Shown piece by piece: positions 17,866 to 59,959 of a stretch of 64,000 nucleotides of DNA. The position numbers were made by a program, and so were the translations under genes. Below the pieces are notes generated by a model, which was not told where the DNA came from, made no database searches, and was given only the letters and a program-made list of their open reading frames with translations. Origin of the DNA: Echinarachnius parma (lineage: Eukaryota; Echinodermata; Echinoidea; Clypeasteroida; Echinarachniidae); contig JBAMJV010002968.1 of NCBI GenBank assembly GCA_037951105.1, forward strand, positions 179,733 to 243,732. The letters are read 5' to 3'. Position 1 is the first letter of the stretch. Every line of letters begins with the position of its first letter.

Positions 17866-18648
17866 TGCGGTTCGTTATTCCGAAGGTTCGTTATTCCGAA
17901 GGTTCGTTATTCCGAACACGCAAATTTCCTATACCTGAGTGTTCGTTAATCCGAAAATTAAATAGGGTTCGTTAATCCGAACATTTGTTGCATTATTCCG
18001 AAGGTTCGTTATTCCGAAGCTTCGTTATTCCGAAGGTTCGTTATTCCGAAGGTTCGTTATTCCGAAGGTTCGTTATTCCGAAGGTTCGCTATTCCTAAAA
18101 TGAAATCGGGTTCGTTATTCCGAAGGTTCGTTATTCCGAAGGTCCGTTATTCCGAAGGTTCGTTATTCAGAAGGTTCGCTATTCCTAAAATGAAATCGGG
18201 TTCGTTAATCCGAAAATGAATTTGGGTTTGTTATAATGCTATAATTTCATATAAAAAGATAAAATAAACTTACATGTTTGATTGGTCTGGCCAAGGGAGG
18301 GAAAGGGGGAGGGGTATGCTTAATGCAGGCTGTAAATTAAATAAACAAAACACAAACTATAGTATTATAACAAGCCCGATTTAATTTTCGGAATAACGAA
18401 CCCGATTTTATTTTCGGATCAACGAACCTTCGGAATAACGAACCTTCGGAATAACGAACCTTCGGAATAACGAACCCGATTTTATTTTCGGATCAACGAA
18501 CCTTCGGAATAACGAACCTTCGGAATAACGAACCTTCGGAATAACGAACCTTCGGAATAACGAACCTTCGGATTAACGAACCTTCGGAATAACGAACCTT
18601 CGGAATAACTGAACCTTCGGAATAACGAACCTTCGGAATAACGGACTG
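17866..18648. mobile_element. Iterated-motif element: opposing blocks of GGTTCGTTATTCCGAA (also 19776-20558)
   Basis: About a dozen copies of the 16-bp motif lie at 17866-18225 in one orientation and a similar number at 18368-18648 in the other, some as the variant TTCGTTAATCCGAAAATTAA. About 140 bp of non-repetitive DNA separates the blocks. The right end CGGACTG, reverse complemented, gives CAGTCCGTTATTCC, found again at 38668. Open frames reading SEGSLFRRF-type repeats come from the motif and are not genes. No transposase; superfamily unknown. Confidence 0.75.
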
Positions 18649-18880
18649 TAACCGAAATGGTTGATGTTCGCATGAGAGGACTTCGGTCAAATGATTGAAA
18701 TAGGGATAAGCCAATAAAGTAAAACAAATTACCTTTAATTAGATTTAAGCGGAAAGTAAATGTCCTTCCTGATAAATCGAACCTATTATTATTTATTTTT
18801 GTAATCATATGAAATAAAATATAGGTTCTAGTAGTTGTATTCTGTGTGTTTAGTTATTATTATGTTTTTATGTCAAACTT
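18649..18880. other. No gene seen (also 20559-20790)
   Basis: AT-rich linker between the iterated-motif element and the first satellite monomer. Confidence 0.4.
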
Positions 18881-18988
18881 TGCCGTGATTCGAAGAATGA
18901 AGATCAGGATCAATCATACATAGTATCAAAACACTGAATCAATGACTGCAAGCAATGCCAGGAGGGGTGAATCATACATAGTATTAAT

Positions 18989-20898
18989 AAAAAATCGAAA
19001 GCGGCGCCCGAATTTCTACTCTCATAATAGCCTTAGAAATACTGATACCGTTTAGCTCATAACACAATGCGCTCATATGGTGCGACATTGGCACTGTAGG
19101 TTTAGTTAAAAGTAGAATAATTATGGTAGATTGGTTGATATATTATAACATACACCTAATAGACACAGAGAGAGGGGCAGTGTACGAAAGCTATCCCTTT
19201 GAATGCAACTGTCGACTCTAGGCATTATACTAATCGTGCCCCATATTCATAAAACCCCGCTAGCTTAGTTCTTGCTAAGTGTATTTTAAATGTGCAGTTT
19301 ATTGAGCAATTAACATACAGTTTTCCTAGCCCCCAACAAGGGTATTCTCACTATTAAAGTTAACCCTACTTGACAACTAAAAGATATCGTGTTTAATTCT
19401 TAGCCACGTCATCCAAAATAGACTTAGCAAGGAACTAAGCTAGCGGGCTTTCATGAATATGGGCCCAGGAATATTGATTTGTCCATTTGTGTCCACAAAT
19501 AGATATGTGTGGAATATAACTGTACATTGTATTGGTGAGTAGACTTCATACTTAGCTGAACTTACGTTCTACTCATTGTAGATTCTAAGTCAAGTGGATT
19601 TTCATATTTTGAACATAATATATGGGGATGTGAAAATGCAGAATTCCATAAGGTGAGCTGTGCCCCCTCTGCACCTCCACCCCATGAGTCTGCTCATCGT
19701 ACGCCACTGTCATAACTATAGTCATTATGAAACATTCTTATGACAACACTGTATACTAGGGGTTGAAATGGTGGGTGCGGTTCGTTATTCCGAAGGTTCG
19801 TTATTCCGAAGGTTCGTTATTCCGAACACGCAAATTTCCTATACCTGAGTGTTCGTTAATCCGAAAATTAAATAGGGTTCGTTAATCCGAACATTTGTTG
19901 CATTATTCCGAAGGTTCGTTATTCCGAAGCTTCGTTATTCCGAAGGTTCGTTATTCCGAAGGTTCGTTATTCCGAAGGTTCGTTATTCCGAAGGTTCGCT
20001 ATTCCTAAAATGAAATCGGGTTCGTTATTCCGAAGGTTCGTTATTCCGAAGGTCCGTTATTCCGAAGGTTCGTTATTCAGAAGGTTCGCTATTCCTAAAA
20101 TGAAATCGGGTTCGTTAATCCGAAAATGAATTTGGGTTTGTTATAATGCTATAATTTCATATAAAAAGATAAAATAAACTTACATGTTTGATTGGTCTGG
20201 CCAAGGGAGGGAAAGGGGGAGGGGTATGCTTAATGCAGGCTGTAAATTAAATAAACAAAACACAAACTATAGTATTATAACAAGCCCGATTTAATTTTCG
20301 GAATAACGAACCCGATTTTATTTTCGGATCAACGAACCTTCGGAATAACGAACCTTCGGAATAACGAACCTTCGGAATAACGAACCCGATTTTATTTTCG
20401 GATCAACGAACCTTCGGAATAACGAACCTTCGGAATAACGAACCTTCGGAATAACGAACCTTCGGAATAACGAACCTTCGGATTAACGAACCTTCGGAAT
20501 AACGAACCTTCGGAATAACTGAACCTTCGGAATAACGAACCTTCGGAATAACGGACTGTAACCGAAATGGTTGATGTTCGCATGAGAGGACTTCGGTCAA
20601 ATGATTGAAATAGGGATAAGCCAATAAAGTAAAACAAATTACCTTTAATTAGATTTAAGCGGAAAGTAAATGTCCTTCCTGATAAATCGAACCTATTATT
20701 ATTTATTTTTGTAATCATATGAAATAAAATATAGGTTCTAGTAGTTGTATTCTGTGTGTTTAGTTATTATTATGTTTTTATGTCAAACTTTGCCGTGATT
20801 CGAAGAATGAAGATCAGGATCAATCATACATAGTATCAAAACACTGAATCAATGACTGCAAGCAATGCCAGGAGGGGTGAATCATACATAGTATTAAT
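18989..20898 (+). repeat. 1,910-bp tandem duplication, copy 2
   Basis: Same content as 17079-18988. It diverges from copy 1 only at its end, where copy 2 continues into the satellite (GTATTAATACACTG) and copy 1 joins to AAAAATCG. The only junction homology is an A/T-rich stub. Confidence 0.9.
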
Positions 20899-21680
20899 AC
20901 ACTGAATCATTGACTACAAGCAATGATAGGAGGGGTGAATCATACATAGTATTAATACACTGAATCATTGACTGCAATCAATGGCAGGAGAGGTGAATCA
21001 TATATAGTATTAAAACAGTGAATCATTGACTGCAAGCAATGGCAGGAGGGGTGAATCATACATAGTATTAATACACTGAATCATTGACAGCAAGCAATGG
21101 CAGGAGGGGTGAATCATACATAGTATCAATACACTGAATCATTGACTGCAAGCAATGACAGGAGGGAATCAGTATAATTGACTGCAAGCAATGACAGGAT
21201 GGGTGAATCATACATAGTATTAATACACTGAATCATTGACTGCAAGCAATGACAGGAGGGTGAATCATACATAGTATTAATACACTGAATCATTGACAGC
21301 AAGCAATGACAGGAGGGGTGAATCATACATAGTATCAATACACTGAATCATTGACTGCAAGCAATGACAGGAGGGAATCAGTATAATTGACTGCAAGCAA
21401 TGACAGGATGGGTGAATCATACATAGTATTAATACACTGAATCATTGACAGCAAGCAATGACAGGAGGGTGAATCATACATAGTATCAATACACTGAATC
21501 ATTGACTGCAAGCAATGACAGGAGGGAATCAGTATAATTGACTGCAAGCAATGACATGATGGGTGAATCATACATAGTATTAATACACTGAATCATTGAC
21601 TGCAAGCCATGGCAGGAGGGTGAATCATACATAGTATTAATACACTGAATCATTGACAGCAAGCAATGACAGGAGCGAAT
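20818..21680 (+). repeat. 58-bp satellite, block 1
   Basis: The monomer begins AATCATACATAGTATTAATA, continues CACTGAATCATTGACTGCAA and ends GCAATGGCAGGAGGGGTG (58 bp; length variants of about 54-57). This block has short variants (GAGGGAATCAGTATAATTG) at 21163, 21372 and 21524 that mark local higher-order repetition. Confidence 0.95.
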
Positions 21681-21784
21681 CATACTATTATTATTAGTAT
21701 TTATTATTATTTATTATTATTTATTCGACCAAAAAGCATAATACAATGTAAAATACAACACAACTATATATGCACAAATTATGC
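21681..21784 (-). mobile_element. LINE-type 3' tail fragment at a satellite orientation switch
   Basis: A TATTATT-rich microsatellite followed by TTTATTCGACCAAAAAGC and ATAATACAATG resembles the antisense 3' end of CR1-like LINEs, as at 62650. It lies exactly between satellite blocks of opposite orientation. Confidence 0.5.
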
Positions 21785-23440
21785 AATGATTCAGTATATT
21801 AATATTCAGTATATTAATATTCAGTATATTAATACTATGTATGATGCACACTTCCTGCTATTGCTTGCAGTAAATAATTCAGTGTATTAATACTATGTAT
21901 GATTCACCTCTACTGCCATTGCTTGCAGTCAATGATTCAGTGTATTGATACTATGTATGATTCACCCTTCCTTCCATTGCTTGCAGTCAATGATTCAGTG
22001 TATTAATACTATGTATGATTCACCTCTACTGCCATTGCTTGCAGTCAATGATTCAGTGTATTGATACTATGTATGATTCACCCTTCCTTTCATTGCTTGC
22101 AGTCAATGATTCAGTGTATTGATACTATGTATGATTGACCCCTCCTGCCATTGCTTGCAGTCAATGATTCAGTGTATTAATACTATGTATGATTCACCCA
22201 TCCTGTCATTGCTTGCAGTCAATGATTCAGTATATTAATACTTTGTATGATGCACCCTTCCTGCTATTGCTTGCAGTAAATAATTCAGTGTATTAATACT
22301 ATGTATGATTCACCTCTCCTGCCATTGCTTGCAGTCAATGATTCAGTGTATTAATACTATGTATGATTCACCCCTCCTTCCATTGCTTGCAGTCAATGAT
22401 TCAGTGTATTAATACTATGTATGATTCACCCTCCTGCCATTGCTTGCAGTCAATGATTCAGTATATTAATACTATGTATGATTCACCCCTCCTTTCATTG
22501 CTTGCAGTCAATGATTCAGTGTATTAATACTATGTATGATTCACCCTCCTTTCATTGCTTGCAGTCAATGATTCAGTGTATTAATACTATGTATGATTCA
22601 CCCTCCTGCCATTGCTTGCAGTCAATGATTCAGTATATTAATACTATGTATGATTCACCCCTCCTGTCATTGCTTTATTGCAGTGTATTGTATTGCAGTG
22701 TATTAATACTATGTATGATTCACCCCTCCTATCATTGCTTGCAGTCAATGATTCAGTGTATTAATACTATGTATGATTCCCTCCTGTCATTGCTTGCAGT
22801 CAATGATTCAGTGTATTGATACTATGTATGATTCACCCCTCCTGCCATTGCTTGCAGTCAATGATTCAGTGTATTAATACTATGTATGATTCACCCATCC
22901 TGCCATTGATTGCAGTCAATGATTCAGTGTATTAATACTATGTATGATTCACCCATCCTGTCATTGCTTGCAGTCAATGATTCAGTATATTAATACTATG
23001 TATGATGCACCCTTCCTGCTATTGCTTGCAGTCAATAATTCAGTGTATTAATACTATGTATGATTCACCTCTCCTGCCATTGCTTGCAGTCAATGATTCA
23101 GTGTATTAATACTATGTATGATTCACCCCTCCTGCCATTGCTTGCAGTCAATGATTCAGTGTATTAATACTATGTATGATTCACCCCTCCTGCAATTGCT
23201 TGCAGTCAATGATTCAGTATATTAATACTATGTATGATTCACCCCTCGGGCCATTGCTTGCAGTCAATGATTAAGTGTATTAATACTATGTATGATTCAC
23301 CCATCCTGTTATTGCTTGCAGTCAATGATTCAGTATATTAATACTATGTATGATGCACCCTTCCTGCTATTGCTTGCAGTCAATAATTCAGTGTATTAAT
23401 ACTATGTATGATTCACCTCTCCTGCCATTGCTTGCAGTCT
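21785..23440 (-). repeat. 58-bp satellite, block 2, inverted
   Basis: The same monomer as the reverse complement (CAGTGTATTAATACTATG, then TATGATTCACCC). It includes the odd monomer with GCAGTGTATTGTATTGCAGT near 22680, which recurs inverted at 27630, 32720 and 33075. A 342-base stretch (22478-22819) mirrors 27510-27851, judged by identical translations. Confidence 0.95.
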
Positions 23441-24104: not shown

Positions 24105-26307
24105 AATACATAGTATTAATGCACTGAATCATTGACTGCAAGCAATGACAAGAGGGAATCATACATAGTATTAATATACTGAATCATTGACTGCAAGCAA
24201 TGACAGGAGGGAATCATACATGGTATTAATATACTGAATCATTGACTGCAAGCAATGACAGGAGGGAATCATACATAGTATTAATACACTGAATCATTGA
24301 CTGCATGCAATGACAGGATGGGTGAATCATACATAGAATTAATACACTGAATCATTGACTGCAAGCAATGACAGGATGGGTGAATCATACATAGTATTAA
24401 TGCACTGAATCATTGACTGCAAGCAATGGCAGGAGGGGTGAATCATACATAGTATTAATACACTGAATCATTGACTGCAAGCAATGACAGGAGGGGTGAA
24501 TCATACATAGTATTAATATACTGAATCATTGACTGCAAGCAATGGCAGGAGGGTGAATCATACATAGTATTAATATACTGAATCATTGACTGCAAGCAAT
24601 GACAGGAGGGGTGAATCATGCATAGTATTCATATACTGAATCATTGACTGCAAGCAATGGCAGGAGGGTGAATCATACATAGAATTAATACACTGAATCA
24701 TTGACTGCAAGCAATGCCAGGAGGGGTGAATCATACATAGTATTAATACACTGAATCATTGACTGCAAGCAATGACAGGAGGGGTGAATCATACATAATA
24801 TTAATATACTGAATCATTGACTGCAAGCAATGGCAGAAGGGTGAATCATACATAGTATTAATACACTGAATCATTGACTGCAAGCAATGAAAGAAGGGGT
24901 GAATCATACATATTATTAATACACTGAATCATTGACTGCAAGCAATGACAGAAGGGTGAATCATACATAGTATTAATATACTGAATCATTGACTGCAAGC
25001 AATGGCAGGAGGGTGAATCATACATAGTATTAATACACTGAATCATTGACTGCAAGCAATGAAAGGAGGGTTGAATCATACATAGTATTAATACACTGAA
25101 TCATTGACTGCAAGCAATGACAGGAGGGGTGAATCATACATAGTATTAATATACTGAATCATTGACTGCAAGCAATGGCAGGAGGGTGAATCATACATAG
25201 TATTAATACACTGAATCATTGACTGCAAGCAATGACAGGAGGGAATCATACATAGTATTAATATACTGAATCATTGACTGCAAGCAGTGGCAGGAGAGGT
25301 GAATCATACATAGTATTAATACACTGAATTATTGACTGCAAGCAATAGCAGGAGGGGTGAATCATACATAGTATTAATACACTGAAGCATTGACTGCAAG
25401 CAATGACAGGAGGGAATCATACATTTTATTAATATACTGAATCATTGACTGCAAGCAATGACAGGAGGGAATCATACATATTATTGATACACTGAATCAT
25501 TGACTGCATGCAATGACAGGATGGGTGAATCATACATAGAATTAATACACTGAATCATTGACTGCAAGCAATGACAGGATGAGTGAATCATACATAGTAT
25601 TAATGCACTGAATCATTGACTGCAAGCAATGCCAGGAGGGGTGAATCATACATAGTATTAATACACTGAATCATTGACTGCAAGCAATGACAGGATGGGT
25701 GAATCATACATAGTATTAATATACTGAATCATTGACTGCAAGCAATGGCATGAGGGTGAATCATACATAGTATTAATACACTGAATCATTGACTGCAAGC
25801 AATGAAAGGAGGGTGAATCATACATAGTATTAATACACTGAAATCATTGACTGCAAGCAATGAAAGGAGGGGTGAATCATACATAGTATTAATATACTGA
25901 ATCATTGACTGCAAGCAATGGCAGGAGGGTGAATCATACATAGTGTTAATACACTGAATCATTGACTGCAAGCAATGACAGGAGGGTGAATCATACATAG
26001 TAGTAATACACTGAATCATTGACTGCAAGCAATGATAGGAGGGGTGAATCATACATAGTATTAATACACTGAAATCATTGACTGCAAGCAATGAAAGGAG
26101 GGGTGAATCATACATAGTATTAATATACTGAATCATTGACTGCAAGCAATGGCAGGAGGGTGAATCATACATAGTGTTAATACACTGAATCATTGACTGC
26201 AAGCAATGACAGGAGGGTGAATCATACATAGTAGTAATACACTGAATCATTGACTGCAAGCAATGGAAGGAGGGGTGAATCATACATAGTATTAATACAC
26301 TGAATCA
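24105..26307 (+). repeat. 58-bp satellite, block 3
   Basis: Direct orientation, about 38 monomers by length. Monomers differ by point changes (GGCAGG, GACAGG, GAAAGG) and by 1-4 bp length steps, in partly alternating order. Confidence 0.95.
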
Positions 26308-26309
26308 TA

Positions 26310-26711
26310 GAGTGGTGAAGTGTGATGTCATAAATGATGTCATAAACATTTTTTTTAGAATTTTCAAATTTGGACCTCATTTTCAGAAAGAGCATAACAA
26401 ATAATGTCCAAATACCGAAAATCATAGGAATAGGTTTCGTATTGGATGAGATATGCCCATCCGAATGATTTTGTTTGTCAATAGGCATCAGTGTAATAGC
26501 GCACTGGTTCATAAATTTATGAACCAGTGCACTATAACACTGATTGCCCATTGAAGTAAAATTCATTCGGATGGGCATATCTCAGCCAATACGTAACCTA
26601 TACCTTTTATTTTCAGTATTTGGACATTATTTGTTATGCTCTTTCTGAAAATGAAGTCCAAATTTGAAAATTCTAAAAAAGTGTTTTTATGACGTCATGG
26701 CTTCTGTACTC
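26310..26711. mobile_element. 402-bp foldback element, copy 1
   Basis: Near-complete inverted repeat. Left end GAGTGGTGAAGTGTGATG; right end, reverse complemented, GAGTACAGAAGCCATGACG. Arms of about 195 bp meet at a 28-bp perfect palindrome built around TTCATAAATTTATGAA. Flanked by TA inside a satellite monomer. Arms share TTTTCAGAAAGAGCATAACA and TGAGATATGCCCATCCGAAT. Non-coding; TA targets suggest a Tc1/mariner-type MITE. Related older copies lie at 10700-12352. Confidence 0.85.
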
Positions 26712-26715
26712 TATA

Positions 26716-28030
26716 GACTGCAAGCAATGGCAGGAGAGGTGAATCATACATAGTATTAATACACTGAATTATTGACTGCAAGCAATAGCAGGAAGGGTGC
26801 ATCATACATAGTATTAATATACTGAATCATTGACTGCAAGCAATAACAGGATGGGTGAATCATACATAGTATTAATACACTTAATCATTGACTGCAAGCA
26901 ATGGCCCGAGGGGTGAATCATACATAGTATTAATATACTGAATCATTGACTGCAAGCAATTGCAGGAGGGGTGAATCATACATAGTATTAATACACTGAA
27001 TCATTGACTGCAAGCAATGGCAGGAGGGGTGAATCATACATAGTATCAATACACTGAATCATTGACTGCAAGCAATGACAGGAGGGGTGAATCATATGTA
27101 GTATTAAAACACTGAATCATTGACTGCAAGCAATGGCAGGAGGGGTGAATCATATATAGTATTAATACACTGAATCATTGACTGCAAGCAATGGCAGGAG
27201 GGGTGAATCATACATAGTATCAATACACTGAATCATTAACTGCAAGCAATGGCAGGAGGGGTAAATCATACATAGTATTAATACACTGAATTATTGACTG
27301 CAAGCAATAGCAGGAAGGGTGCATCATACATAGTATTAATATACTGAATCATTGACTGCAAGCAATGACAGGATGGGTGAATCATACATAGTATTAATAC
27401 ACTGAATCATTGACTGCAATCAATGGCAGGAGGGGTGAATCATACATAGTATTAATACACTGAATCATTGACTGCAAGCAATGGCAGGAGGGGTGAATCA
27501 TACATAGTATCAATACACTGAATCATTGACTGCAAGCAATGACAGGAGGGAATCATACATAGTATTAATACACTGAATCATTGACTGCAAGCAATGATAG
27601 GAGGGGTGAATCATACATAGTATTAATACACTGCAATACAATACACTGCAATAAAGCAATGACAGGAGGGGTGAATCATACATAGTATTAATATACTGAA
27701 TCATTGACTGCAAGCAATGGCAGGAGGGTGAATCATACATAGTATTAATACACTGAATCATTGACTGCAAGCAATGAAAGGAGGGTGAATCATACATAGT
27801 ATTAATACACTGAATCATTGACTGCAAGCAATGGAAGGAGGGGTGAATCATACATAGTATTAATATACTGAATCATTGACTGCAAGCAATGGCAGGAGGG
27901 TGAATCATACATAGTATTAATACACTGAATTATTGACTGCAAGCAATGGCAGGAGAGGTGAATCATACATAGTATTAATACACTGAATCATTGACTGCAA
28001 GCAATGGAAGGAGGGGTGAATCATACATAG
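26716..28030 (+). repeat. 58-bp satellite, block 4
   Basis: Direct orientation. The first part (to about 27160) repeats base for base, as far as compared, at 29127-29341 plus 31840 onward, so this is a segmental duplicate within the satellite. Confidence 0.95.
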
Positions 28031-28700
28031 TGTAGGGATTTATTTTGTACACTTTCACCCCTTTTATTATTTGGCACTTACTATGCCACTTGCCCTTTAT
28101 CATTTGGTATCTGGTTCAAAGTTCCTTCCTATTATGTTCATGCTTGAGTTACCACCCAATCTCATCAATACATGTTACATTTCATTCATGCCTAGCTTCT
28201 AATTCTATCCTATTGTTTCTCTCTGGCATCTGACCAATTGACTCTAGATCTAAACTCTCTTTCTCTACATGTGTGGATTCCACACATGTCTTCGCTATTG
28301 TATCTGGTCACCTTTCCATACCATCTCACTGATTATCACATTCCAACCCCACCCCCATCTTTCTTATTGGTTATTTTGAATAATAGGGTTAGTCCATTTG
28401 AGTTATCTATTTTTGTGATTGGTTGTATTGGTTTCCCCCTTGGTTATATTGGTTCTTCCCTTCTGTTAATTTGCATATTGTATATTTTGTTATCTCATGA
28501 TTTTTCTTGTATATATTGGGCTGTATGCCTTGTATTAAATCAGTGCACTACCAGACTTATTCGTATCAACCCGTCTCTTCTTTTTGGTTCTACTTGTGTT
28601 CTCTATGATTCCTGTTCGTTTGATTTGCTGCTGTTTGACTGTATTATTTATCCAGTAGGCTCGTTCTACCCACGTTACCTGTTTATTTCTCTCCCCCACA
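28031..28700. mobile_element. Solo LTR-like element, 670 bp
   Basis: Starts TGTAGGG and ends CCCCCACA (TG...CA termini), with the satellite tetramer ATAG on both sides (28027-28030 and 28701-28704). The interior is pyrimidine-rich and has no coding domains. A 4-bp duplication fits Gypsy-type LTR retrotransposons, but the family is not provable from one LTR. The matching flanks and clean ends suggest a fairly recent insertion, later than the surrounding satellite expansion. Confidence 0.7.
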
Positions 28701-28724: not shown

Positions 28725-29126
28725 GAGTGGTGAAGTGTGATGTCATAAATGATGTCATAAACATTTTTTTTAGAATTTTCAAATTTGGACCTCATTTTCA
28801 GAAAGAGCATAACAAATAATGTCCAAATACCGAAAATCATAGGAATAGGTTTCGTATTGGATGAGATATGCCCATCCGAATGATTTTGTTTGTCAATAGG
28901 CATCAGTGTAATAGCGCACTGGTTCATAAATTTATGAACCAGTGCACTATAACACTGATTGCCCATTGAAGTAAAATTCATTCGGATGGGCATATCTCAG
29001 CCAATACGTAACCTATACCTTTTATTTTCAGTATTTGGACATTATTTGTTATGCTCTTTCTGAAAATGAAGTCCAAATTTGAAAATTCTAAAAAAGTGTT
29101 TTTATGACGTCATGGCTTCTGTACTC
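28725..29126. mobile_element. 402-bp foldback element, copy 2
   Basis: Appears identical to 26310-26711, including the flanking satellite bases, so it was copied with the satellite segment and did not insert independently. Confidence 0.85.
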
Positions 29127-29341
29127 TATAGACTGCAAGCAATGGCAGGAGAGGTGAATCATACATAGTATTAATACACTGAATTATTGACTGCAAGCAA
29201 TAGCAGGAAGGGTGCATCATACATAGTATTAATATACTGAATCATTGACTGCAAGCAATAACAGGATGGGTGAATCATACATAGTATTAATACACTTAAT
29301 CATTGACTGCAAGCAATGGCCCGAGGGGTGAATCATACATA
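29127..29341 (+). repeat. 58-bp satellite, block 5
   Basis: Four monomers matching 26712-26937 in order and variants; interrupted by the 29342 insertion. Confidence 0.95.
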
Positions 29342-31839
29342 GGGCAATTCCACGCCAAAGTGGACATTTGACCAAAAATTTTACAAGCATTTTTATGATA
29401 CAAATTTGGTATCAAATCAAAGCTTAAATTCTATATTTTTGGAATTCAATGAGAAAATTTTAGTTTTACATAATTTTAGTTTTTTTTTTATAATAACTTT
29501 ATAACCATAATTGAACCCCACAAATTTGACATTTTGGTGAAAAAGTGTTTTGATCCTGTGTTTGTTTACTATTTCCCCAGTTAAGCCTAAAAACCATTAT
29601 TCTGACTCCTGAGATATGACCATTTCGTAAAATAGTAAATTTGTATGATTTATTTGATTTGTTATGCTTCAATGACTTCTTATTTTCAGCCTATGCAAAT
29701 GTCCTTCCGTTACCGAAAAATCAATATTTTTAATTTTGTGGCTCATATAATTGTTAGAGAGCAGACCGATCTTCAGTGCAAAGCAAGTTCAAGTAGGCCT
29801 TCCCATTGCTAACAATTGTATTACTCATTGTTTCTTCGTTAATTAATAAATAACAAAAGAAAATGTCCTTCCGTTACCATACACATGGTAACAGATGGAC
29901 AAGGTACCTCATATTACATATTATGACAAAATTGATGTTAAAAAATTGGTCTCTCATATATGAAAACCCAAAATAATGAGACAATACCTGCAATGGCCAG
30001 CTATCAGTGGCGTAGCGTGGTCAGACTAGTAATTTTCTGTGTTTCAACCAATCAGATTTGTGCATTTAGAACATTTGATCTGGCCCACAATTGATTTTAT
30101 CGCTTTCTGCAACAGGGCCCTTGTACCATGATGCCATTTGTCTGGATTTCTATTGTATGGGGATTAGTAGGTCTATTTAACTGTGGTGAGCCAGGGTGTG
30201 AATAGGCTCTGATCATGACTTTGAATAGGTCTTTTTTTATACAATACACCCCTATAGAATTCTTGGACATGGGTGTAGGTCTAAAATAATTAAATTTTAC
30301 ATGAAATTTGCAAACTAAAAACAAGGCTGTAGAAAAAGCAAGAAATAATATATCTCCAATTCGTTCATATGTTGTAGAAATTATATCAAGCCAAGATTTA
30401 AGCAAAACAAATTCTCAAAATTATTTGATCCACGAGGTAAAACGGAAGGTCAAAATCTAAGGTCAAAGGTTATCGTATCCAAACTCGCTCATGCATGAAC
30501 ACAAATGGCATAAATGGATTGCACATAACATCCCCAGTCCAATGACACCTTTACAAAATAAATTGACCCAACGGTTAATGGACAATGGCCATTTGAAAAA
30601 TGGTGCCCACGCCCATTTCTTACAAAACTCCCCCATAAGAATCGACCATAGCGCCAAAACCATTGGGCGGATTGGGCTAAAACTTAAATATTTGCGCTTT
30701 TAAAGGTTGAAATATCATACATACCAAATATTAGCAAATTTGAAGGGGGCTGCGATGAAAATTTTCTATTTTTTTAAAGGTGATTTGACATGGAATGACC
30801 CTACTGTGTCATATCATACATTATAGTCCATTATGTCCTTCCGTTACCGAACATTGGTCCGCTTTGTGTGAAATAACTCAAATATCTGCGGACAAATTTT
30901 AATCAAAGAACAAGTAAATTCTTCTTAACCCTTCAGAGAATGAAATGTGTACCCTTAAAATATTTTGTATTATTTAATATCACAGAGTTTTAGTTAAAAC
31001 TGATTTGATAACAAAACCTTGTCCATTTTGGTGTCCTTCCGTTACCGACCTCAATTTTATGCATATTCAATAATGTGCGGAGATTTAAAAAAAAAAAAAT
31101 TATGGGACCTTAAAACTGTATGTTTTGGAAGTATTGTTATCAAAATAGACTGTTCTAACAACACAAGTATTTAAAAATGTCTTTCTTAAAGTTGACAATT
31201 TGTGTCTGAGTGTCCTTCCGTTACCATGGATTGACCATGAATAAGAGCCATTTTTAGCATGAAATATAGTAAGAAAAAAATAGAAATGTAAATGCTTGTG
31301 ATGTCCATATGCTATCTATGATACAAACTCATTTTAGACCACAAAAGAGATGTTTCCTTCTCATAAATGGTCTTTAAATTTCAAAATTAATTTTATTGTA
31401 CAATTCCAATAGACTTTTCAGAGGTCCTTCCGTTACCGTCCTTCCGTTACCGAACACTGGAGTAATTAATTTATCATAATTAATATACCAATGTAGATAT
31501 TTTTCTTAAAAGGTGGTGTTATACTCTGTGAACATAAGGAAATTGACTAGTAGCCAACTTAACATGATAAACCTCGTAACTTCACAGAGATTGGGTCATA
31601 ACTAAAAAACTTGAAAATCCATGTCCATTTCGGTGTCCTTCCGTTACCGGCCTCATTAGTGTCCATATCTAATTTACATAATGCGGTCAAAATTTTAGAA
31701 ATAGTGGAAATCAAAGGTGTCCCAACAAGGATCAAAGACATGACATTTAGAATAAAAAATCAAAAGCAGGATCTTGGAATTATTTGATTGAAGTTCCAAA
31801 ATTGTGTCTGAATGTCCTTCCGTTACCGTGGAATTGCCC
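29342..31839. mobile_element. 2.5-kb transposon with nine TGTCCTTCCGTTACCG motifs
   Basis: Ends are GGGCAATTCCACG and its inverse CGTGGAATTGCCC; the satellite tetramer CATA is duplicated on both sides (29338-29341 and 31840-31843). The 16-bp motif TGTCCTTCCGTTACCG, with one or two changes, starts near 29700, 29864, 30834, 31032, 31211, 31423, 31437, 31634 and 31813; the last touches the right end. The last three of these repeat the trio 30834/31032/31211 at +602 or +603 bp, with similar flanks, so the right half contains an old ~602-bp duplication. A CAGTGGCGTAGC end at 30008 suggests a nested fragment. No transposase frame; superfamily undetermined (4-bp target). Confidence 0.8.
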
Positions 31840-34800
31840 CATAGTATTAATATACTGAATCATTGACTGCAAGCAATTGCAGGAGGGGTGAATCATACAT
31901 AGTATTAATACACTGAATCATTGACTGCAAGCAATGGCAGGAGGGGTGAATCATACATAGTATCAATACACTGAATCATTGACTGCAAGCAATGACAGGA
32001 GGGGTGAATCATATGTAGTATTAAAACACTGAATCATTGACTGCAAGCAATGGCAGGAGGGGTGAATCATATATAGTATTAATACACTGAATCATTGACT
32101 GCAAGCAATGGCAGGAGGGGTGAATCATACATAGTATCAATACACTGAATCATTGACTGCAAGCAATGGCAGGAGGGGTAAATCATACATAGTATTAATA
32201 TACTGAATCATTGACTGCAAGCAATGGAAGGAGGGGTCAATCATACATAGTATTAATACACTGAATCATTGACTGCAAGCAATGGCAGGAGGGTGAATCA
32301 TACATAGTATTAATACACTGAATCATTGACTGCAAGCAATGGAAGGAGAGGTGAATCATACATAGTATTAATACACTGAATTATTGACTGCAAGCAATAG
32401 CAGGAAGGGTGCATCATACATAGTATTAATATACTGAATCATTGACTGCAAGCAATGAAAGGATGGGTGAATCATACATAGTATTAATACACTGAATCAT
32501 TGACTGCAATCAATGGCAGGAGGGGTGAATCATACATAGTATTAATACACTGAATCATTGACTGCAAGCAATGACAGGAGGGGTGAATCATACATAGTAT
32601 CAATACACTGAATCATTGACTGCAAGCAATGACAGGAGGGAATCATACATAGTATTAATACACTGAATCATTGACTGCAAGCAATCATAGGAGGGGTGAA
32701 TCATACATAGTATTAATACACTGCAATACAATACACTGCAATAAAGCAATGACAGGAGGGGTGAATCATACATAGTATTAATATACTGAATCATTGACTG
32801 CAAGCAATGGCAGGAGGGTGAATCATACATAGTATTAATACACTGAATCATTGACTGCAAGCAATGGCAGGAGGGTGAATCATACATAGTATTAATACAC
32901 TGAATCATTGACTGCAAGCAATGGAAGGAGGGGTGAATCATACATAGTATTAATACACTGAATCATTGACTGCAAGCAATGGCAGGAGAGGTGAATCATA
33001 CATAGTATTAATACACTGAATCATTGACTGCAAGCAATCATAGGAGGGGTGAATCATACATAGTATTAATACACTGCAATACAATACACTGCAATAAAGC
33101 AATGACAGGAGGGGTGAATCATACATAGTATTAATATACTGAATCATTGACTGCAAGCAATGGCAGGAGGGTGAATCATACATAGTAATAATACACTGAA
33201 TCATTGACTGCAAGCAATGGCAGGAGGGTGAATCATACATAGTATTAATACACTGAATCATTGACTGCAAGCAATGGAAGGAGGGGTGAATCATACATAG
33301 TATTAATACACTGAATCATTGACTGCAAGCAATGGCAGGAGAGGTGAATCATACATAGTATTAATACACTGAATTATTTACTGCAAGCAATAGCAGGAAG
33401 GGTGCATCATACATAGTATTAATATACTGAATCATTGACTGCAAGCAATGACAGGATGGGTGAATCATACATAGTATTAATACACTGAATCATTGACTGC
33501 AAGCAATGGCAGGAGGGGTGAATCATACATAGTATCAATACACTGAATCATTGACTGCAAGCAATGGCAGTAGAGGTGAATCATACATAGTATTAATACA
33601 CTGAATTATTTACTGCAAACAATAGCAGGAAGGGTGCATCATACATAGTATTAATATACTGAATCATTGACTGCAAGCAATGACAGGATGGGTGAATCAT
33701 ACATAGTATTAATACACTGAATCATTGACTGCAACCAATGGCAGGAGGGGTGAATCATACATAGTATCAATACACTGAATCATTGACTGCAAACAATGGC
33801 AGTAGAGGTGAATCATACATAGTATTAATACACTGAATCATTGACTGCAAGCAATAGCAGGAGGGGTGAATCATACATAGTATTAATACACTGAAGCATT
33901 GACTGCAAGCAATGACAGGAGGGAATCATACATAGTATTAATATACTGAATCATTGACTGCAGGCAATGACAGGAGGGAATCATACATATTATTAATACA
34001 CTGAATCATTGACTGCATGCAATGACAGGATGGGTGAATCATACATATGATTAATGCACTGAATCATTGACTGCAAGCAATGCCAGGAGGGGTGAATCAT
34101 ACATAGTATTAATACACTGAATCATTGACTGCAAGCAATGACAGGAGGGGTGAATCATACATAGTATTAATATACTGAATCATTGACTGCAAGCAATGGC
34201 AGGAGAGGTGAATCATACATAGTATTAATACACTGAATTATTTACTGCAAGCAATAGCAGGAAGGGTGCATCATACATAGTATTTATATACTGAATCATT
34301 GACTGCAAGCAATGACAGGATGGGTGAATCATACATAGTATTAATACACTGAATCATTGACTGCAAGCAATGGCAGGAGGGGTGAATCATACATAGTATC
34401 AATACACTGAATCATTGACTGCAATCAATGGCAGGAGAGGTGAATCATATGTAGTATTAAAACACTAAATCATTGACTGTAAGCAATGGCAGGAGGGGTG
34501 AATCATACATAGTATTAATACACTGAATCATTGACTGCAAGCAATGGCAGGAGGGGTGAATCATACATAGTATCAATACACTGAATCATTGACTGCAAGC
34601 AATGACAGGAGGGAATCAGTATCATTGACTGCAAGCAATGACAGGATGGGTGAATCATACATAGTATTAATACACTGAATCATTGACTGCAAGCAATGAC
34701 AGGAGGGTGAATCATACATAGTATTAATACACTGAATCATTGACTGCAAGCAATGGCAGGAGGGTGAATCATACATAGTATTAATACACTGAATCATTTA

Positions 34801-37740
34801 CAGCAAGCAATGGCAGGAGGTGTGAATCATACATAATATTAATACACTGGATCATTGACTGCAAGCAATGACAGGAGAGAATCATACATAGTATTAATAT
34901 ACTGAATCATTGACTGCAAGCAATGACAGGAGAGAATCATACATAGTATTAATACACTGAATCATTGACTGCAAGCAATGAAAGGAGGGGTGAATCATAC
35001 ATAGTATTAATATACTGAATCATTGACTGCAAACAATGGCAGGAGGGTGAATCATACATAGTATTAATACACTGAATCATTGACTGCAAGCAATGGAAGG
35101 AGGGGTGAATCATACATATTACTAATACACTGAATCATTGACTGCAAGCAATGGCAGGAGAGGTGAATCATACATAGTATTAATACACTGAATTATTTAC
35201 TGCAAGCAATAGCAGGAAGGGTGCATCATACATAGTATTAATATACTGAATCATTGACTGCAAGCAATGACAGGATGGGTGAATCATACATAGTATTAAT
35301 ACACTGAATCATTGATTGCAAGCAATGGCAGGAGGGGTGAATCATACATAGTATCAATACACTGAATCATTGACTGCAAGCAATGGCAGTAGAGGTGAAT
35401 CATACATAGTATTAATACACTGAATTATTTACTGCAAGCAATAGCAGGAAGGGTGCATCATACATAGTATTAATATACTGAATCATTGACTGCAAGCAAT
35501 GACAGGATGGGTGAATCATACATAGTATTAATACACTGAATCATTGACTGCAAGCAATGGCAGGAGGGGTGAATCATACATAGTATCAATACACTGAATC
35601 ATTGACTGCAAACAATGGCAGTAGAGGTGAATCATACATAGTATTAATACACTGAATCATTGACTGCAAGCAATAGCAGGAGGGGTGAATCATACATAGT
35701 ATTAATACACTGAAGCATTGACTGCAAGCAATGACAGGAGGGAATCATACATAGTATTAATATACTGAATCATTGACTGCAGGCAATGACAGGAGGGAAT
35801 CATACATATTATTAATACACTGAATCATTGACTGCATGCAATGACAGGATGGGTGAATCATACATATGATTAATGCACTGAATCATTGACTGCAAGCAAT
35901 GCCAGGAGGGGTGAATCATACATAGTATTAATACACTGAATCATTGACTGCAAGCAATGACAGGAGGGGTGAATCATACATAGTATTAATACACTGAATC
36001 ATTGACTGCAATCAATGACAGAAGGGGTGAATCATACATAGTATTAATATACTGAATCATTGACTGCAAGCAATGGCAGGAGGGTGAATCATACATAGTA
36101 TTAATACACTGAATCATTGACTGCAAGCAATGAAAGGGGGGGGTGAATCATACATAGAATTAATATACTGAATCATTGACTGCAAGCAATGGCAGGAGGG
36201 TGAATCATACATAGTATTAATACACTGAATCATTGACTGCAAGCAATGGAAGGAAGGGTGAATCATACATAGTATTAATACACTGAATCATTGACTGCAA
36301 GCAATGGCAGGAGAGGTGAATCATACATAGTATTAATACACTGAATTATTGACTGCAAGTAATGGCAGGAGGGTGAATCATACATAGTATTAATACACTG
36401 AATCATTGACTGCAAGCAATGACAGGAGGGAATCATACATAGTATTAATACACTGAATCATTGACTGCAAGCAATGATAGGAGGGGTGAATCATACATAG
36501 TATTAATACACTGAATCATTGACTGCAATCAATGGCAGGAGAGGTGAATCATATGTAGTATTAAAACACTAAATCATTGACTGTAAGCAATGGCAGGAGG
36601 GGTGAATCATACATAGTATTAATACACTGAATCATTGACTGCAAGCAATGGCAGGAGGGGTGAATCATACATAGTATCAATACACTGAATCATTGACTGC
36701 AAGCAATGACAGGAGGGAATCAGTATCATTGACTGCAAGCAATGACAGGATGGGTGAATCATACATAGTATTAGTACACTGAATCATTGACTGCAAGCAA
36801 TGACAGGAGGGTGAATCATACATAGTATTAATACACTGAATCATTGACTGCAAGCAATGGCAGGAGGGTGAATCATACATAGTATTAATACACTGAATCA
36901 TTTACAGCAAGCAGTGGCAGGAGGTGTGAATCATACATAGTATTAATACACTGGATCATTGACTGCAAGCAATGACAGGAGAGAATCATACATAGTATTA
37001 ATATACTGAATCATTGACTGCAAGCAATGACAGGAGAGAATCATACATAGTATTAATACACTGAATCATTGACTGCAAGCAATGAAAGGAGGGGTGAATC
37101 ATACATAGTATTAATATACTGAATCATTGACTGCAAGCAATGGCAGGAGGGTGAATCATACATAGTATTAATACACTGAATCATTGACTGCAAGCAATGG
37201 AAGGAGGGGTGAATCATACATATTACTAATACACTGAATCATTGACTGCAAGCAATGGCAGGAGAGGTGAATCATACATAGTATTAATACACTGAATTAT
37301 TGACTGCAAGCAATAGCAGGAGGGGTGAATCATACATAGTATTTATACACTGAATCATTGACTGCAAGCAATGGCAGGAGGGGTGAATCATACATAGTAT
37401 TAATATACTGAATCATTGACTGCAAGCAATGGCAGGAGGGGTGAATCATACATAGTATTAATACACTGAATCATTGACTGCAAGCAATGACAGGAGGGAA
37501 TCATACATAGTATTAATGCACTGAATCATTGACTGCAAGCAATGGCAGGAGGGTGAATCATACATAGTATTAATATACTGAATCATTGACTACAAGCAAT
37601 GACAGGAGGGAATCATACATACTATTAATACACTGAATCATTGACTGCAAGCAATGACAGGAGGGAATCATACATAGTATTACTGCACTGAATTTATTGA
37701 CTGCAATCAATGACAGGAGGGAATCATACATAGTATTAAT
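31840..37740 (+). repeat. 58-bp satellite, block 6 (largest)
   Basis: About 5.9 kb in direct orientation. Higher-order periods are visible: a ~350-bp period at 32600-33294, an 1819-bp offset (rare GATTAATGCACTG monomer at 34048 and 35867), and a 2104-bp offset (TATGTAGTATTAAAACACTA near 34448 and 36552). Ends at the hairpin at 37746. Confidence 0.95.
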
Positions 37741-37745
37741 ATTAT

Positions 37746-41037: not shown

Positions 41038-42444
41038 AGCCCAATGCCCACTATGCGATCTGGGCTTAGCGATCTAGAGCGATATTGCCCGAATAGGAGC
41101 GATCCCCTGAGATCTGTGGTTAAGTCGCCAAGTGGGCACCAATGGCCGCACCAGATCGCTGTAACTCGCGTCCGCAAGGGTGGTGTCGGTTGCGGTCGCC
41201 GGGGTTTTGACATGTTCAAAAATCTGGCGACCAGGTCGGTCTCGATCGCATTCGCGGCGAACTGGTGCGGCCATTGGTGCCCACTTTGCGACTTAACACA
41301 GATATCAGGGGATCGCTCCTATTCGGACAAGATCGCATAGTGGGCATTGGGCTAGCGACCTTGGAATCACTGATTCCATTGTGCACGCCATCTTTTTAAT
41401 TTGGCCTCCTTGGAGTCATAGCTTGGCTCTTATTTCCACCCATTGTCAAGGAATACAATAACGAGGAATTCACGCTTGTTTGATTCTGAATTTGTTGGAA
41501 TGTGTGGAATGTGTGCTCATGGCCAGTCATGGCTAGCCGTTTTAACATTTATTTCCTTTGCTTGATATCAAGAATTACCATTGCTTAACAACAACAAATC
41601 ATTTCTTGATATCAACAATTCATTTCTTGATATCAAGAAAAGAATTCCTTATTCTTGCAGGGCGCCTTTGTAGAGCAGTTTCGCATAACTGAACATTGAA
41701 TGCTTGATATCAAGAAACCACTTTCTTTTGCTAACAAATGGCAATTCCTGATTTCAAGAATTCAACTCCTGGCATCAAGAAATCGAATTCTTAATATCAA
41801 GAAATCGAACTCTGGATATCATTAATTTATTTCCTGATATCAAGAATTTAATTATTGATATATGAAAACAGAATTCCTGATATCAAGGATTGAATTCCTG
41901 ATATCAGGAAATATGACCAATTGCCCAAATGGCTTGCCATTTGTGCGATCCCGCCCGACATGCGATCGAGAACGAAATTTTTGAACATGTCCAAAACCTG
42001 GCGACCGCAACCGACACCACCCTTGCGGACGCGAGTTACAGCGATCTGGTGCGGCCATTGATGCCCACCTTGCGAATTAACCACATATCTCGGGGGATCG
42101 CTCGTATTCGGGCAAGATCGCTCTAGATCGCTAGGCGCAGATCGCAAAGTGGGCACTGGGCACTGGGTTTATAAAAAAAACTCGCAAAGCGGATTATGAT
42201 GTCTAGACAAGCAAGAGCGAACAATACCTGGCTATAATCATCAACCATGCACGCATGCGTGGAAATAGGGACAATGCATTTCTCACGGGAAGTCGCCGTA
42301 AGATCGCATAGTGGGCACCGAAAAGATCGCGTACGCAATGAGATCGGGCTGACTCGCGGCGATCTGGTGCGATTCACACCGAACCGAGATCGCTAGCAAC
42401 TCGGGCTAGATCGCAAGCTTAGATCGCATAGTGGGCACTAGGAT
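41038..42444. mobile_element. GATCG-rich element with TTCTTGATATCAAGAA array, copy 1
   Basis: The left end AGCCCAATGCCCACTATGCG and the right end's inverse (CCTAGTGCCCACTATGCG) match. Inside is a complete 316-bp foldback (41038-41353), a block at 41565-41915 with about a dozen versions of the perfect palindrome TTCTTGATATCAAGAA, and further half-copies of the foldback at 41940-42165 and 42300-42444. Frames through the GATCG parts recur in several copies but follow the inverted repeat, not a protein family. Confidence 0.7.
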
Positions 42445-42651
42445 TTAGCTGGTATTCACAAAAGGCCAATAGGCTAAATTCGCTATCGTAGTCAATGCCC
42501 GACCTAGCATGACAACCCATCTGTCTAAATTCCACAAGCATTTGGTATTCCACGACATTGTTAGTCGAAATGCGAACAATAAAAACAATAGATCTGCGGT
42601 GTGGACTTATTGCATTGAAATCTATTTATGTGGGACCTTCTGTTGGACTAA

Positions 42652-50617: not shown

Positions 50618-50789
50618 CGGGGGGGGGGGGGGGGTCACATAAATTATTTGGGCACACCTTTTCTCTTTATTTGTTAAGATATGTATGTTTTCTAATGTTT
50701 TGGCAATGTATTCAGTGCCACGTGCCCCCCGCTCCCTCATGTGATCATGTGATTGGGATCAATACAATAACGAAATTGTAATCATTTTA
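50618..50789. other. G-run then unrecognised sequence
   Basis: A run of about 17 G marks the point where the family A MITE stops. Nothing else recognised. Confidence 0.4.
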
Positions 50790-50918
50790 TAAATTGCGAC
50801 CCCCATTTCGTATTATGAATAGCGACCCTTTTCTCATATATCATGAATAGTGACCCTCATCGCGTATTATGAATAGCGACCCTATTTTCATATTATGAAT
50901 AGCAACCCTCATTACGTA
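50790..50918 (+). repeat. GAATAGCGACC array, left part
   Basis: Four to five copies of about 28-31 bp: TATTATGAATAGCGACCCT plus a short variable linker. The last unit breaks off at CATTACGTA. Confidence 0.75.
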
Positions 50919-54810: not shown

Positions 54811-54984
54811 TATTATGAATAGCGGTCCCAATGTGAATTATGAATAGTGACCCTCATGTCACATTCATTATGAATAATGGTCCTTATGCGTTTATGAATA
54901 GTGATCCCTTTTGCGTTTTATGAATAGCGGTCCTTCATGTATAGGAAGTTACACATTATGAATAGTGGTCCTTATGAATAACGA
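54811..54984 (+). repeat. GAATAGCGACC array, right part
   Basis: Six units such as TATTATGAATAGCGGTCCC in the same orientation as 50790-50918. The left unit ending CATTACG plus TATTATGAATAG here rebuilds a normal unit across the 50919-54810 stretch. Confidence 0.75.
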
Positions 54985-55045
54985 GGTTACCCCCCAAACA
55001 AACAATTTTGTGCAGCGCCCTCTATACCAAAACTCAACTATCCCT
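54985..55045 (-). mobile_element. End fragment of TTAA MITE family A
   Basis: GTGCAGCGCCCTCTATACC, AAAACTCAACTATCCCT, then TTAA. Only this end is present. Confidence 0.75.
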
Positions 55046-55882: not shown

Positions 55883-55886
55883 TTAA

Positions 55887-56430: not shown

Positions 56431-56434
56431 TTAA

Positions 56435-57655
56435 ATGAATTCGGATTACTTGTTCTACGTGGACTTACTGTGTGTGTAAAGGGTTTATTTCATATTTTGC
56501 CTCAATGCTGCATATTCATAAATACACTATTATTTTGTTGAGATGACAGGGCTAGTCATGTATCAAGAGATTATTTTAGTTGCCAGGGGGGGGGGGGGGG
56601 TGCCTTGGGAGCACAACTAAACCAGTGGTCTCGGTCTCGACAAATTTTGGCGACAGACACCCCCCCCCCCCCCCCCCCCCCCCCCCAACCCGCTTTAGTA
56701 CACGTCTTATCCAGTGGTCCCGGTCTCGTCCACGATCGATCCCGTTTTTGTAAATTACGCACTACCTTTGAAAATCCTCGCTATATTATGTACCGGTAGG
56801 GTTATTTAGTATGTAAGAAATGCTTTAACTGATACCCAGCTAACATTAGTTACTAAGAAAACCTTGTATTGCTTATGTAGCCCTATCATGAATACAGTTA
56901 TTATACAAATGAGGTTTAAAGAACAGGAGCCCTGGTCATCGTATGAAGATAAGGATTGTTATTGAACCCATAGTTTTTAAACTTTTACATGAATATGGAC
57001 CCTGGTCATCTGACATGTCTGACAGGGAACGTGTTTGAATTTCAATGTTGTTACTGAACACAAGCATTTTAACAGGAATTTAATTATTTTCAGTTAAAAT
57101 TTGTCATTTTCGGCGCTATTTTACCAGAGAAAAGTTCGAATTAGCCTGCATCTACACTTATCTTGCTCAAGGGTCGAAGTGGACGCATCCTTAGAATTGA
57201 ATGAGGTCGAACGACTTATTTCACAACAAAATCTGGATAGATGATCGATCAACTGAGCAGCCTTTAAAATGACACCCGATATTGGTGACACATTTTGTTT
57301 GATTTATTTTTTTATTGTTTGCATATTGTGTTTTGGGGGATAATTTCCAGGCCTGCCTACACATAAATAATAGCACTCCAAACTTATTTCGCATTAAAAG
57401 TTATACAATCTGTGACAATTTTATATTTTGGCGAAAATGTTGTGGTTCCGAGAGCCAGCTCGCTCCGAGCACCCGGCTATTATATTAGTGTATATTGCTG
57501 TGTGAACGCAGGGATAGACAGGTCAAACTCCATTCGTAACTTGACCCCGACATTCACCTCGTCATAATCTCAGGTATGTCACGTATGTCGTGTATGGCAT
57601 GTATGTGTGTTCAACATGTGTCATCTCGGCGTTCATAAAACGTGATACATGTATA
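56435..57655. other. No gene seen; G- and C-run patch
   Basis: A G-run at 56587-56601 and a C-run at about 56660-56687, with CCAGTGGTCTCGGTCTCG and CCAGTGGTCCCGGTCTCG words near 56622 and 56712. The rest is unrecognised. Confidence 0.4.
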
Positions 57656-59959
57656 CTCCGCAAAAAAAGAAACAGGACACTTGTTTAAGTTTAAATATTT
57701 CATATTTATGTGGGCCATTCTTGGTCACGTGTGTGACCCAAAACATGACAAATTTTGAAATGGGATGCTTATATTTCAGTAAGTATGAGACTATAATGAT
57801 TTTTACTTCATATGTGACTTGAATATGTTGTAGTCTTTCAAACTTAACACAAAAGATTTTATAAGGATTACGTAACTCAATGTCAGAGGTCAAATGGCAT
57901 GGGTCACGTGTGTGACTTCGCACGGAGCGCTTTTTTCATAACTAAATTTCATTTGGAAAATTCTTTAAAATATGAATAGCTATAATGTTCATCTTATTAC
58001 CAGAGAAGTACTATACATTTGTAAGTACAACAATAGCAATGAATGAGAATTATATCAAACCGTTGTTTTTTATAGTACTTAATTATGTGGCAACGTCTGG
58101 TCACGTGTGTGACATTTTGGGGTGGTCACGTGTGTGACATGTACAATATGAATGGAAAAATGGGAATTTTATAATATCAGGTTTAGAAAAGAATGAAAGG
58201 TTGAATTTTTACAAAGTTGGTATCAACCTGTACAGGAAAGTGAGAAGAATGAGCTTACTAATTATCCTTTTGATATCTTGATTATTTTCTGAATTATGAT
58301 TATTAGAAACATATTGAAATATGTAAATTTATGCAAATGAGTAAAAAAGTTTCATTTTAAACTTCAAATCATGTATTTCATGAAACTTTACACATGGATC
58401 ATTCCAAAAATGGAACAAAACTACAGAAAAATAAAACTTCAATTTTTCCGAAAAAGTTTCACTTTTTAAAGAATGGGCCATGTACGATAAAGTGTACATT
58501 ATCATATATCAAATTAAAGGAAATGTAGTCCTCTACAGGTATGGAAAAATGATAAGGTGTAATCGTTCATGCATGAACTGCCATGGTCAATTAACAATAG
58601 CAAGGTCTGTTTTCAAAAATAGCAAAAACAATGGATGACCACACCATTCGACTGAAATGATAGTAAGCGTTTCGCTAAAAACAAGATGTGCGGGGAGAGT
58701 AAATTATGACATTACTTAACCTTATTGTTATGAACATACTCTGAAATACACAATTTCCAATAAAACCGGTCCAGGTTATGAGAACATCAACATACTGGTC
58801 TATCTTTGAGGCATGAAGCTTGTCTGTTTCATGTGTCCCCTGCAATTTTAACCATAGTTACCTAGAGAAATTAATGTTAGAGACTACCCAACTGGTTGAC
58901 GAAGGGTGACATCAGGTTTTAAAGATCTTTGGACGACAGTAGAATCCTTGAAAAGAATTTATACCAAGTTTCATACTGAAATAATGGCACAAACTGTGGT
59001 TTCGACGAATAAACCATTGTCATGGAAGTTCCAATTTCCTTTCATTTGCATGGATCAAAATAAAACATATAACGTTCGCAATTTGTCTTCATTTATACTT
59101 TTTAATTGAGATGAAAATAAAAAAAGATCACATTTGCAGTTAAAAAGTATGCCATGTTATGAATATAGCGTTTTAGATATGCTTATCCACATTTATATGG
59201 CTGAGTTGAAGTTCCATATTCACTATTTTTGAAAACAGACCTTGCTGTGGTTAAAGGGGTAGTTTAGTTTTGGTAAGGCTGAACTTAAGTAGCTAAAACC
59301 TGCACAGTAACATTATAAACTAATAGTTATAACTCCACCATGCTCGAAAGGTATACAAAATTACAAACGACTAAGTAAAAAGCCTGTTTTCATTCAAAAA
59401 GAGCCATTCAAACACAAGAGGGCGCTTTTTTAAAAGGCATTGGTTTCAACCATTTTTCATACAAAATTATGCATGTGATGTTTTATTGATATAATGATTA
59501 AATAGCGAGATCATCAACAACTATTTAAAAACGCTTTTGAACATTTTTGAAAAAGTGCAAGCATTTAAAACAAATTTTCTAAAAATCATCTAATTATTTG
59601 GGCCCCAAATAATTATAAGATCAGATATATTTATTGATATTTCAGCCGTTTCTGGGTCGATTTTGATCAAATAAAGTTTTCTGCCATTAAAATTGCATGT
59701 TCTCTCAAATTCGACATTCAGTTTTTCATTACCTCACAAAAAAATTGTGATGTGCAGCGCCCTCTCTACCAAAACTAAACTACCCCTTTAATTGACCGTG
59801 ACAAGTCATGCATGAATGATTTCATCTGAATTGTATGCCAATATTGAAGAGGGTCATTTTATTTTATCTTTAATTTGATATACAATATCATCTATGTTAT
59901 CGTAAATAAATATGAAATATTTTGTCTTGAATAAGTATCCTGTTTCTTTTTTTGCAGAG
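57656..59959. mobile_element. 2.3-kb TA transposon with GGTCACGTGTGTGAC motifs
   Basis: Left end CTCCGCAAAAAAAGAAACAG, right end inverse CTCTGCAAAAAAAGAAACAG; similarity extends about 60 bp. TA on both sides (57654-57655 and 59960-59961). GGTCACGTGTGTGAC occurs four times (about 57723, 57902, 58099, 58123). A second inverted pair (58495-58660 against 59210-59250 plus 59792-59895) lies further in. A family A MITE sits inside. Tc1/mariner-type by target; no transposase frame. Confidence 0.8.
59255..59787 (+). mobile_element. TTAA MITE family A, complete, 533 bp, nested
   Basis: TTAA at 59251-59254 and 59788-59791; ends AGGGGTAGTTTAGTTTTGG and inverse AGGGGTAGTTTAGTTTTGG. It splits the inverted arm of the 57656 transposon (CAGACCTTGCTGTGG on the left, TTGACCGTGACAAGTCATG on the right), so it is the younger insertion. 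Confidence 0.9.

Follow-up and report, generated by a model that had tools for sequence, protein, structure and literature searches.

Why should several repeated elements lying close together in one genome each carry many copies of a short word of their own? The question is raised by a 64,000-nucleotide stretch from the echinoid Echinarachnius parma (GenBank assembly GCA_037951105.1, contig JBAMJV010002968.1, positions 179,733 to 243,732 of the forward strand), hereafter the window, whose numbering is used throughout. In the original prediction, made from the sequence alone, at least four unrelated families of non-autonomous elements were described as having evolved this layout recurrently, which was taken to suggest selection for multivalent binding, or else a common mechanism generating such arrays. 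Word constraint was found in element B (29342-31839) and its relatives, and to that extent the suggestion stands; a recurrent design in unrelated families was not recovered. Instead, element B and a second element, D' (57712-58479), look related in their ends, in the length of their target duplications and in the positions of their words. With modest confidence, both are read here as members of one lineage of non-autonomous DNA transposons bearing one-sided arrays of putative docking sites for a mobilising protein.

Element B is 2498 bp long and is read on the reverse strand, from its word-bearing end. Its ends are GGGCAATTCCAC and its target duplication is CATA. Flanking 4-mers match in 29 of 30 copies, the window copy included, against 1.7 expected from shuffling; two of the copies (L011 and L012) have identical flanks. 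These copies come from the best 40 scored out of 2568 candidates and therefore form a young sample. Nine exact words are present, all in one orientation. Word 1 (GGTAACGGAAGGAC; 31814-31827, offset 13) adjoins the terminal repeat, word 2 lies at 31635-31648 (offset 192) and word 3 at 31438-31451 (offset 389), with word 4 in tandem with it at 31424-31437 (offset 403). Three more words, at offsets 615, 794, and 992, belong to an old copy, inside the element, of its word-bearing end (30835-31225), and the last two are found at 29865-29878 (offset 1962) and 29701-29714 (offset 2126). When k-mers were counted on both strands and compared with 60 dinucleotide shuffles, the nine copies of the 12-mer exceeded a shuffle maximum of 3. 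The element is inserted in a satellite with a 58-bp unit (AATCATACATAGTATTAATACACTGAATCATTGACTGCAAGCAATGGCAGG...), whose long arrays run in both orientations at 20822-23439, 24106-28031, 29131-29342, and 31840-37741.

Conservation was measured as the diversity of word columns against that of spacer columns across copies, with significance taken from rotations. In B, word diversity was 0.0049 and spacer diversity 0.0191 (29 distinct rows), a ratio of 0.26, or about four times lower. A value this low was reached by 5 of 2497 rotations and by none of 10,000 sets of GC-matched, run-free 14-mers, whose mean was 0.0174. A relative, L108, was also compared with the B end. Here 54 of 56 word bases and 264 of 336 spacer bases matched (p 0.0007), gap columns being excluded (3 in words, 17 in spacers) and one L108 word having a 3-base insertion.

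Element D' (768 bp, forward strand) has ends GGGCCATTCTT and the target duplication ATGT, and the identical 4-mer was found on either side in 14 of 15 copies (3.1 expected by shuffling). Its four words begin with GGTCACGTGTGTGAC at 57723-57737 (offset 12, adjoining the terminal repeat) and continue at 57902-57916 (offset 191), 58099-58113 (offset 388), and 58124-58138 (offset 413). These words had been ascribed to an element starting at 57656. That larger element, at 57654-59961, has 56-nt terminal inverted repeats with TA at both outer edges; D' is nested within it, and the words are not its own. Among 40 scored places the only full-length match to the 2.3-kb element was the window itself, and the other 39 matched about 57708-58483, some with short further pieces. 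Over the whole stretch 57656-59962 a 12-mer occurs four times against a shuffle maximum of 3. In D' alone, tested like the later elements against 100 shuffles, the top 7- and 8-mers were unexceptional (reached by 81 and 12 shuffles), and the top 9- and 10-mers were exceptional (reached by 2 and 0). At the other end of D' (58330-58479), AAAGTTTCA was seen by eye three times, twice direct and once inverted, and is perhaps a second word set. Further inverted-repeat elements lie at 28766-29095 and 59251-59791, the latter nested in the 57654 element and starting TTAAAGGGGTAGTTTAG.

The two elements look related. The ends of both fit GGGC(A/C)ATTC, both have 4-bp target duplications, and in both a word abuts one terminal repeat. 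Counted from the word-bearing end, the word offsets of B are 13, 192, 389, and 403, and those of D' are 12, 191, 388, and 413. The words themselves can be aligned as GGTAACGGAAG-GAC and GGTCACGTGTGTGAC, with GGTNACG and a final GAC in common. The textbook factor site noted earlier, CACGTG, is indeed present in the D' word; it is missing from the corresponding B word and may be incidental. Aligned over 450 bp with ends and words included, the two elements score 37, against a shuffle mean of 11.5 (standard deviation 5.3) and maximum of 32. From these likenesses, the two elements look like a single lineage, and we infer common descent.

Equal spacing was further examined by placing the D' words at random. 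The two inner intervals both matched B exactly in 2 of 10^6 placements and came within 1 bp in 25; when any B offsets were counted, the figures were 25 and 170 of 10^6. The test was framed after the match had been seen, and its numbers serve as a guide only. Across the whole 1.2-Gb assembly, 5977 occurrences of the D' word and 8347 of the B word were counted, compared with 1 and 5 of the reversed patterns. The first 100 places listed for each word were collected into groups by strand and distance. A first interval of 179-181 was found in 24 of the 26 D' groups and 12 of the 15 from B; single-word groups (3 D', 1 B) are excluded, and groups of one family are not independent of each other.

Duplication and deletion have both altered the arrays. 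In L108 the word-bearing end is present in two tandem copies 202 bp apart. In B the old duplicate of the same end, 602 bp in, keeps its three words exact at intervals of 179 and 198, and its spacers are no more similar, or little more similar, than noise would be (z 1.2 and 3.5). In L109, one read among three D' relatives found, the D' end and word 1 are joined directly to sequence downstream of word 3, which amounts to a deletion from one word to another. For Tetris repeats, a like mode of growth by duplicated ends is proposed in the passages compared (PMC4079207).

A third family, H, has ends GGGTCATTCC like those of B and D' (621 pattern places), and half of an H element lies within B at 30032-30801, 90% identical to the H copy L104. 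This copy is 2357 bp long, with inverted arms of 1014 nt that are 95% alike. H was tried as a third word-bearing family and rejected, the top 7-, 8-, and 9-mers of L104 being reached by 45, 40, and 21 of 100 shuffles and the 10-mers by 3. A single B-like word (GGTAAAACGGAAGG) was seen by eye in each arm of L104, about 350 bp from the end, and again at about 30442 of the window on the minus strand. Longer H copies (L105-L107) hold 3, 8, and 4 open reading frames of at least 90 amino acids, among which no transposase was seen by eye, no profile search having been made. A scan of 360,330 bases for pairs of ends whose flanking 4-mers match gave B, D', H, and a single mixed B-H pair, and the pattern GGGTCATTCNNNGGTNACG, meant to reveal a third family, was found at 0 places. 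Among the papers listed in a literature search with the end sequences, those seen were unrelated by title.

Placement in a known superfamily was considered next to these features. hAT elements duplicate 8 bp of target, and piggyBac and Kolobok elements insert at TTAA. B and D' fit neither, since their duplications are 4 bp long and varied (CATA, TATA, ATGT, and others). Sola2 elements come nearer, having terminal repeats of 12-21 bp and AT-rich 4-bp target duplications in common with B and D'; word arrays are not mentioned in the Sola2 passages compared (PMC3627910). As a transposase was not found, B and D' are not assigned to Sola2 despite the resemblance. Both elements repeat a short word internal to the terminal repeat and close to the end, and in B that word is more conserved than the spacers; in these respects they resemble elements with subterminal transposase-binding repeats.

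Such repeats are known from several systems, here compared through passages of the cited papers. In CACTA elements (En/Spm, Tgm) the subterminal repeats are recognised by the protein TNPA, and their motif varies from family to family while the ends are kept. CACTA elements resemble B and D' in their short terminal repeats, asymmetric word arrays, and family-specific words with similar ends within a species, but their ends begin CACTA, their target duplications are 3 bp, and their repeats are dense (in Tgmt*, 4 in 159 bp and 24 in 732 bp), whereas those of B and D' are 179-197 bp apart (PMC2613891). In Galileo, family-specific THAP sites are repeated at about 70, 561-577, and 701-718 bp in (PMC3688188). 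Binding sites far inside the end, and arrays that arise from duplication of end sequence, are features that Galileo and foldback elements have in common with B and D' (PMC3688188, PMC4079207). Galileo, however, belongs to the P superfamily and has long inverted repeats, unlike B and D', whose terminal repeats are short, whose target duplications are 4 bp long, and whose arrays are one-sided. Hermes, a hAT element, has several subterminal sites, unlike at its two ends, and requires about 220 terminal bp for mobility in cells; its site (BED) differs in being a 4-base motif (PMC10368747).

On the favoured reading, the words of B and D' would be bound by the mobilising protein, either through the DNA-binding domain of a transposase or through an element-encoded helper. 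One site would abut the terminal repeat and others would follow at +179 bp and +376 bp, about one nucleosome repeat apart. Occupation of several sites together could allow the protein to distinguish a functional end from isolated sites that arise by chance. If the specificity of the protein drifted, all words of an element would change together as their positions stayed. Arrays would grow when the word-bearing end is duplicated and become shorter through word-to-word deletion.

Several findings weigh against this reading. Autonomous partners were looked for, as had been proposed, and no autonomous copy and no transposase was found for B or D'. The D' word columns hold 0 variants in 60, a value as low being reached in 198 of 770 rotations; this underpowered test agrees with word conservation but cannot by itself show it. 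Even in B, the contrast between shared and single-copy changes was not significant (p 0.69), and the words were poorer in single-copy changes too. Family H has similar ends yet is without an array. The spacing also varies. L108 has intervals of 169, 198, and 14 (its first word read by eye), so that even the first interval departs from the rule, and later D' intervals include 143, 197, 202, 208, and 209, with 221 where one word was apparently lost. The spacing is therefore strongly, not rigidly, kept. In the known systems, two of the four Galileo repeats are without the site (PMC3688188), and a section heading of the Hermes paper (PMC10368747) deems it unlikely that auxiliary transposases bind inside the ends.

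Among the alternatives, that B and D' are deep homologues whose spacing was inherited passively with few insertions and deletions, and was not itself selected, is possible and is to be taken seriously, though it is not what is expected. The similar ends and words, the alignment of the word-containing ends beyond all shuffles, and the altered intervals tolerated by L108 and some D' copies are consistent with it, as is the higher score of matched spacers (20 and 17) than of mismatched ones (8 and 9; z -1.2 and -1.1). Yet the matched spacers taken alone do no better than shuffles (z 1.4 and 0.2; scores reached by 55 and 202 of 500), and diverged, unconstrained sequence would be expected to gather insertions and deletions, whereas two intervals are equal to the base.

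An inherited signal in the spacing itself is put forward more tentatively. The positions 0, +179, and +376 bp would then form a ruler of nucleosome length held under selection, the end would be read as a chromatin-sized assembly, and words would be replaced in concert as the transposase and its sites co-evolved. Selection on the spacing, and nucleosomes setting it, would both have to be supposed, and the data do not decide between selected spacing (perhaps via nucleosomes) and passive inheritance. Nothing on site spacing and nucleosomes was met in a limited literature search judged by titles and the starts of abstracts. The long, equal spacing apparently held between families after turnover of words and spacers differs from the published passages compared, and may be unreported as far as that limited search extends.

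It is doubtful that the words bind host factors which promote transcription or a favoured chromatin state. The D' word holds an E-box, which we take to be a site for bHLH proteins at CACGTG, and the B word holds a GGAA core, presumably a site for an ETS-type factor at CGGAAG. The conservation of B words would suit such binding, but words at corresponding places would then bind unrelated factors, and a single orientation with the first word abutting the terminal repeat is better suited to end recognition.

The remaining arrays of the window are of another kind. Element A (17863-18653) is a foldback element, which recurs at 19773-20563; the ~1.9-kb stretch in which it lies is repeated in tandem, and the copies are identical where compared. 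Its arms consist of 16-bp tandem units and are complementary to each other over 180 nt (94%). The ends are GGGTGCGG and GGACTGTAACC, and the 8-bp duplication is GAAATGGT. In seven copies compared (L003-L008 and one from the window, to which L001 and L002 also belong), such duplications are exact in 3, carry one mismatch in 2, and are out of register in 2. Of 1987 candidate places 40 were scored, and 38 of these lie outside the two window copies. Long inverted arms of a short tandem repeat and an 8-bp target duplication place A with Foldback/TU-like elements, the 8-bp duplication being characteristic of TU. Inverted tandem-repeat arms are common to A, Galileo, and foldback elements; according to work cited in PMC4079207, foldback elements occur in Drosophila and in sea urchin.

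In element C (41038-42450, with a second copy from about 42650), GATATC words sit in a degenerate tandem repeat of ~21 bp (68% matches), and flanking 3-mers are equal in 4 of 14 copies. The word excess that had been reported is real in A and C as it is in B, a 10-mer occurring 24 times in A (shuffle maximum 4) and GATATCA 16 times in C (maximum 6). Element G (7023-7729), absent from the original prediction, is a dense array of ~10-bp TACGTT words with a tandem period of 10 bp and flanking 4-mers equal in 2 of 14 copies. Greater conservation of words than of flanks had been proposed as the check, and collapse into minisatellites as the refutation. B passed the check and did not collapse. In C (15 copies and the window) three definitions of the word gave diversity ratios of 0.97 (10-bp palindrome), 0.86 (exact 8-mer), and 1.17 (21-mer), and in G (20 copies and the window) two definitions gave 0.97 and 1.00. 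With tandem periods and words as variable as their flanks, C and G are thus ordinary minisatellite-type arrays. In A the ratio of 0.28 leans to conserved words but is not significant (139 of 746 rotations). Apart from the case of B and D', A, C, and G are here tandem-repeat arrays without significant word constraint.

Two weaker candidates had been listed with a perhaps. Element E (39160-39814), with TATA flanks in all 9 copies whose ends were found, is a weak word array: its window copy has no word excess, although the fuller copy L090 has a modest one, reached by 2-3 of 100 shuffles. Its ratio of 0.27 again leans to conserved words, not significantly (66 of 655 rotations). F (6430-6690), with GAGTC/GACTC words, is only partly exceptional, its top 7-, 8-, and 9-mers being reached by 1, 0, and 0 of 100 shuffles and its 10-mer by 11. 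No family was shown for F, since of 40 places scored in a genome search spanning it, the other 39 matched G only. A further repeated word, TTATGAATAGCGACCC/TTATGAATAGTGGTCC, recurs with a 26-bp period at 50787-50918 and 54868-54990.

That all the word arrays are minisatellite-like by-products of slippage or unequal recombination, as the tandem periods of A, C, and G (16, ~21, and 10 bp), their want of significant extra word conservation, and the L109 deletion would allow, is improbable, because the words of B and D' lie mostly 150-210 bp apart in non-repeated spacers and those of B are more conserved than GC-matched sequence, the L108 comparison also disfavouring it for B.

Arrays of subterminal sites are already known, and two families with equal site positions, different sites, and spacers that cannot be aligned make it testable why such arrays can reach hundreds of bases inward: whether an end is read partly by its spacing, and whether words change in concert. 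They also advise caution, in that repeats catalogued as bearing transcription-factor sites may hold sites for their own mobilising protein instead.

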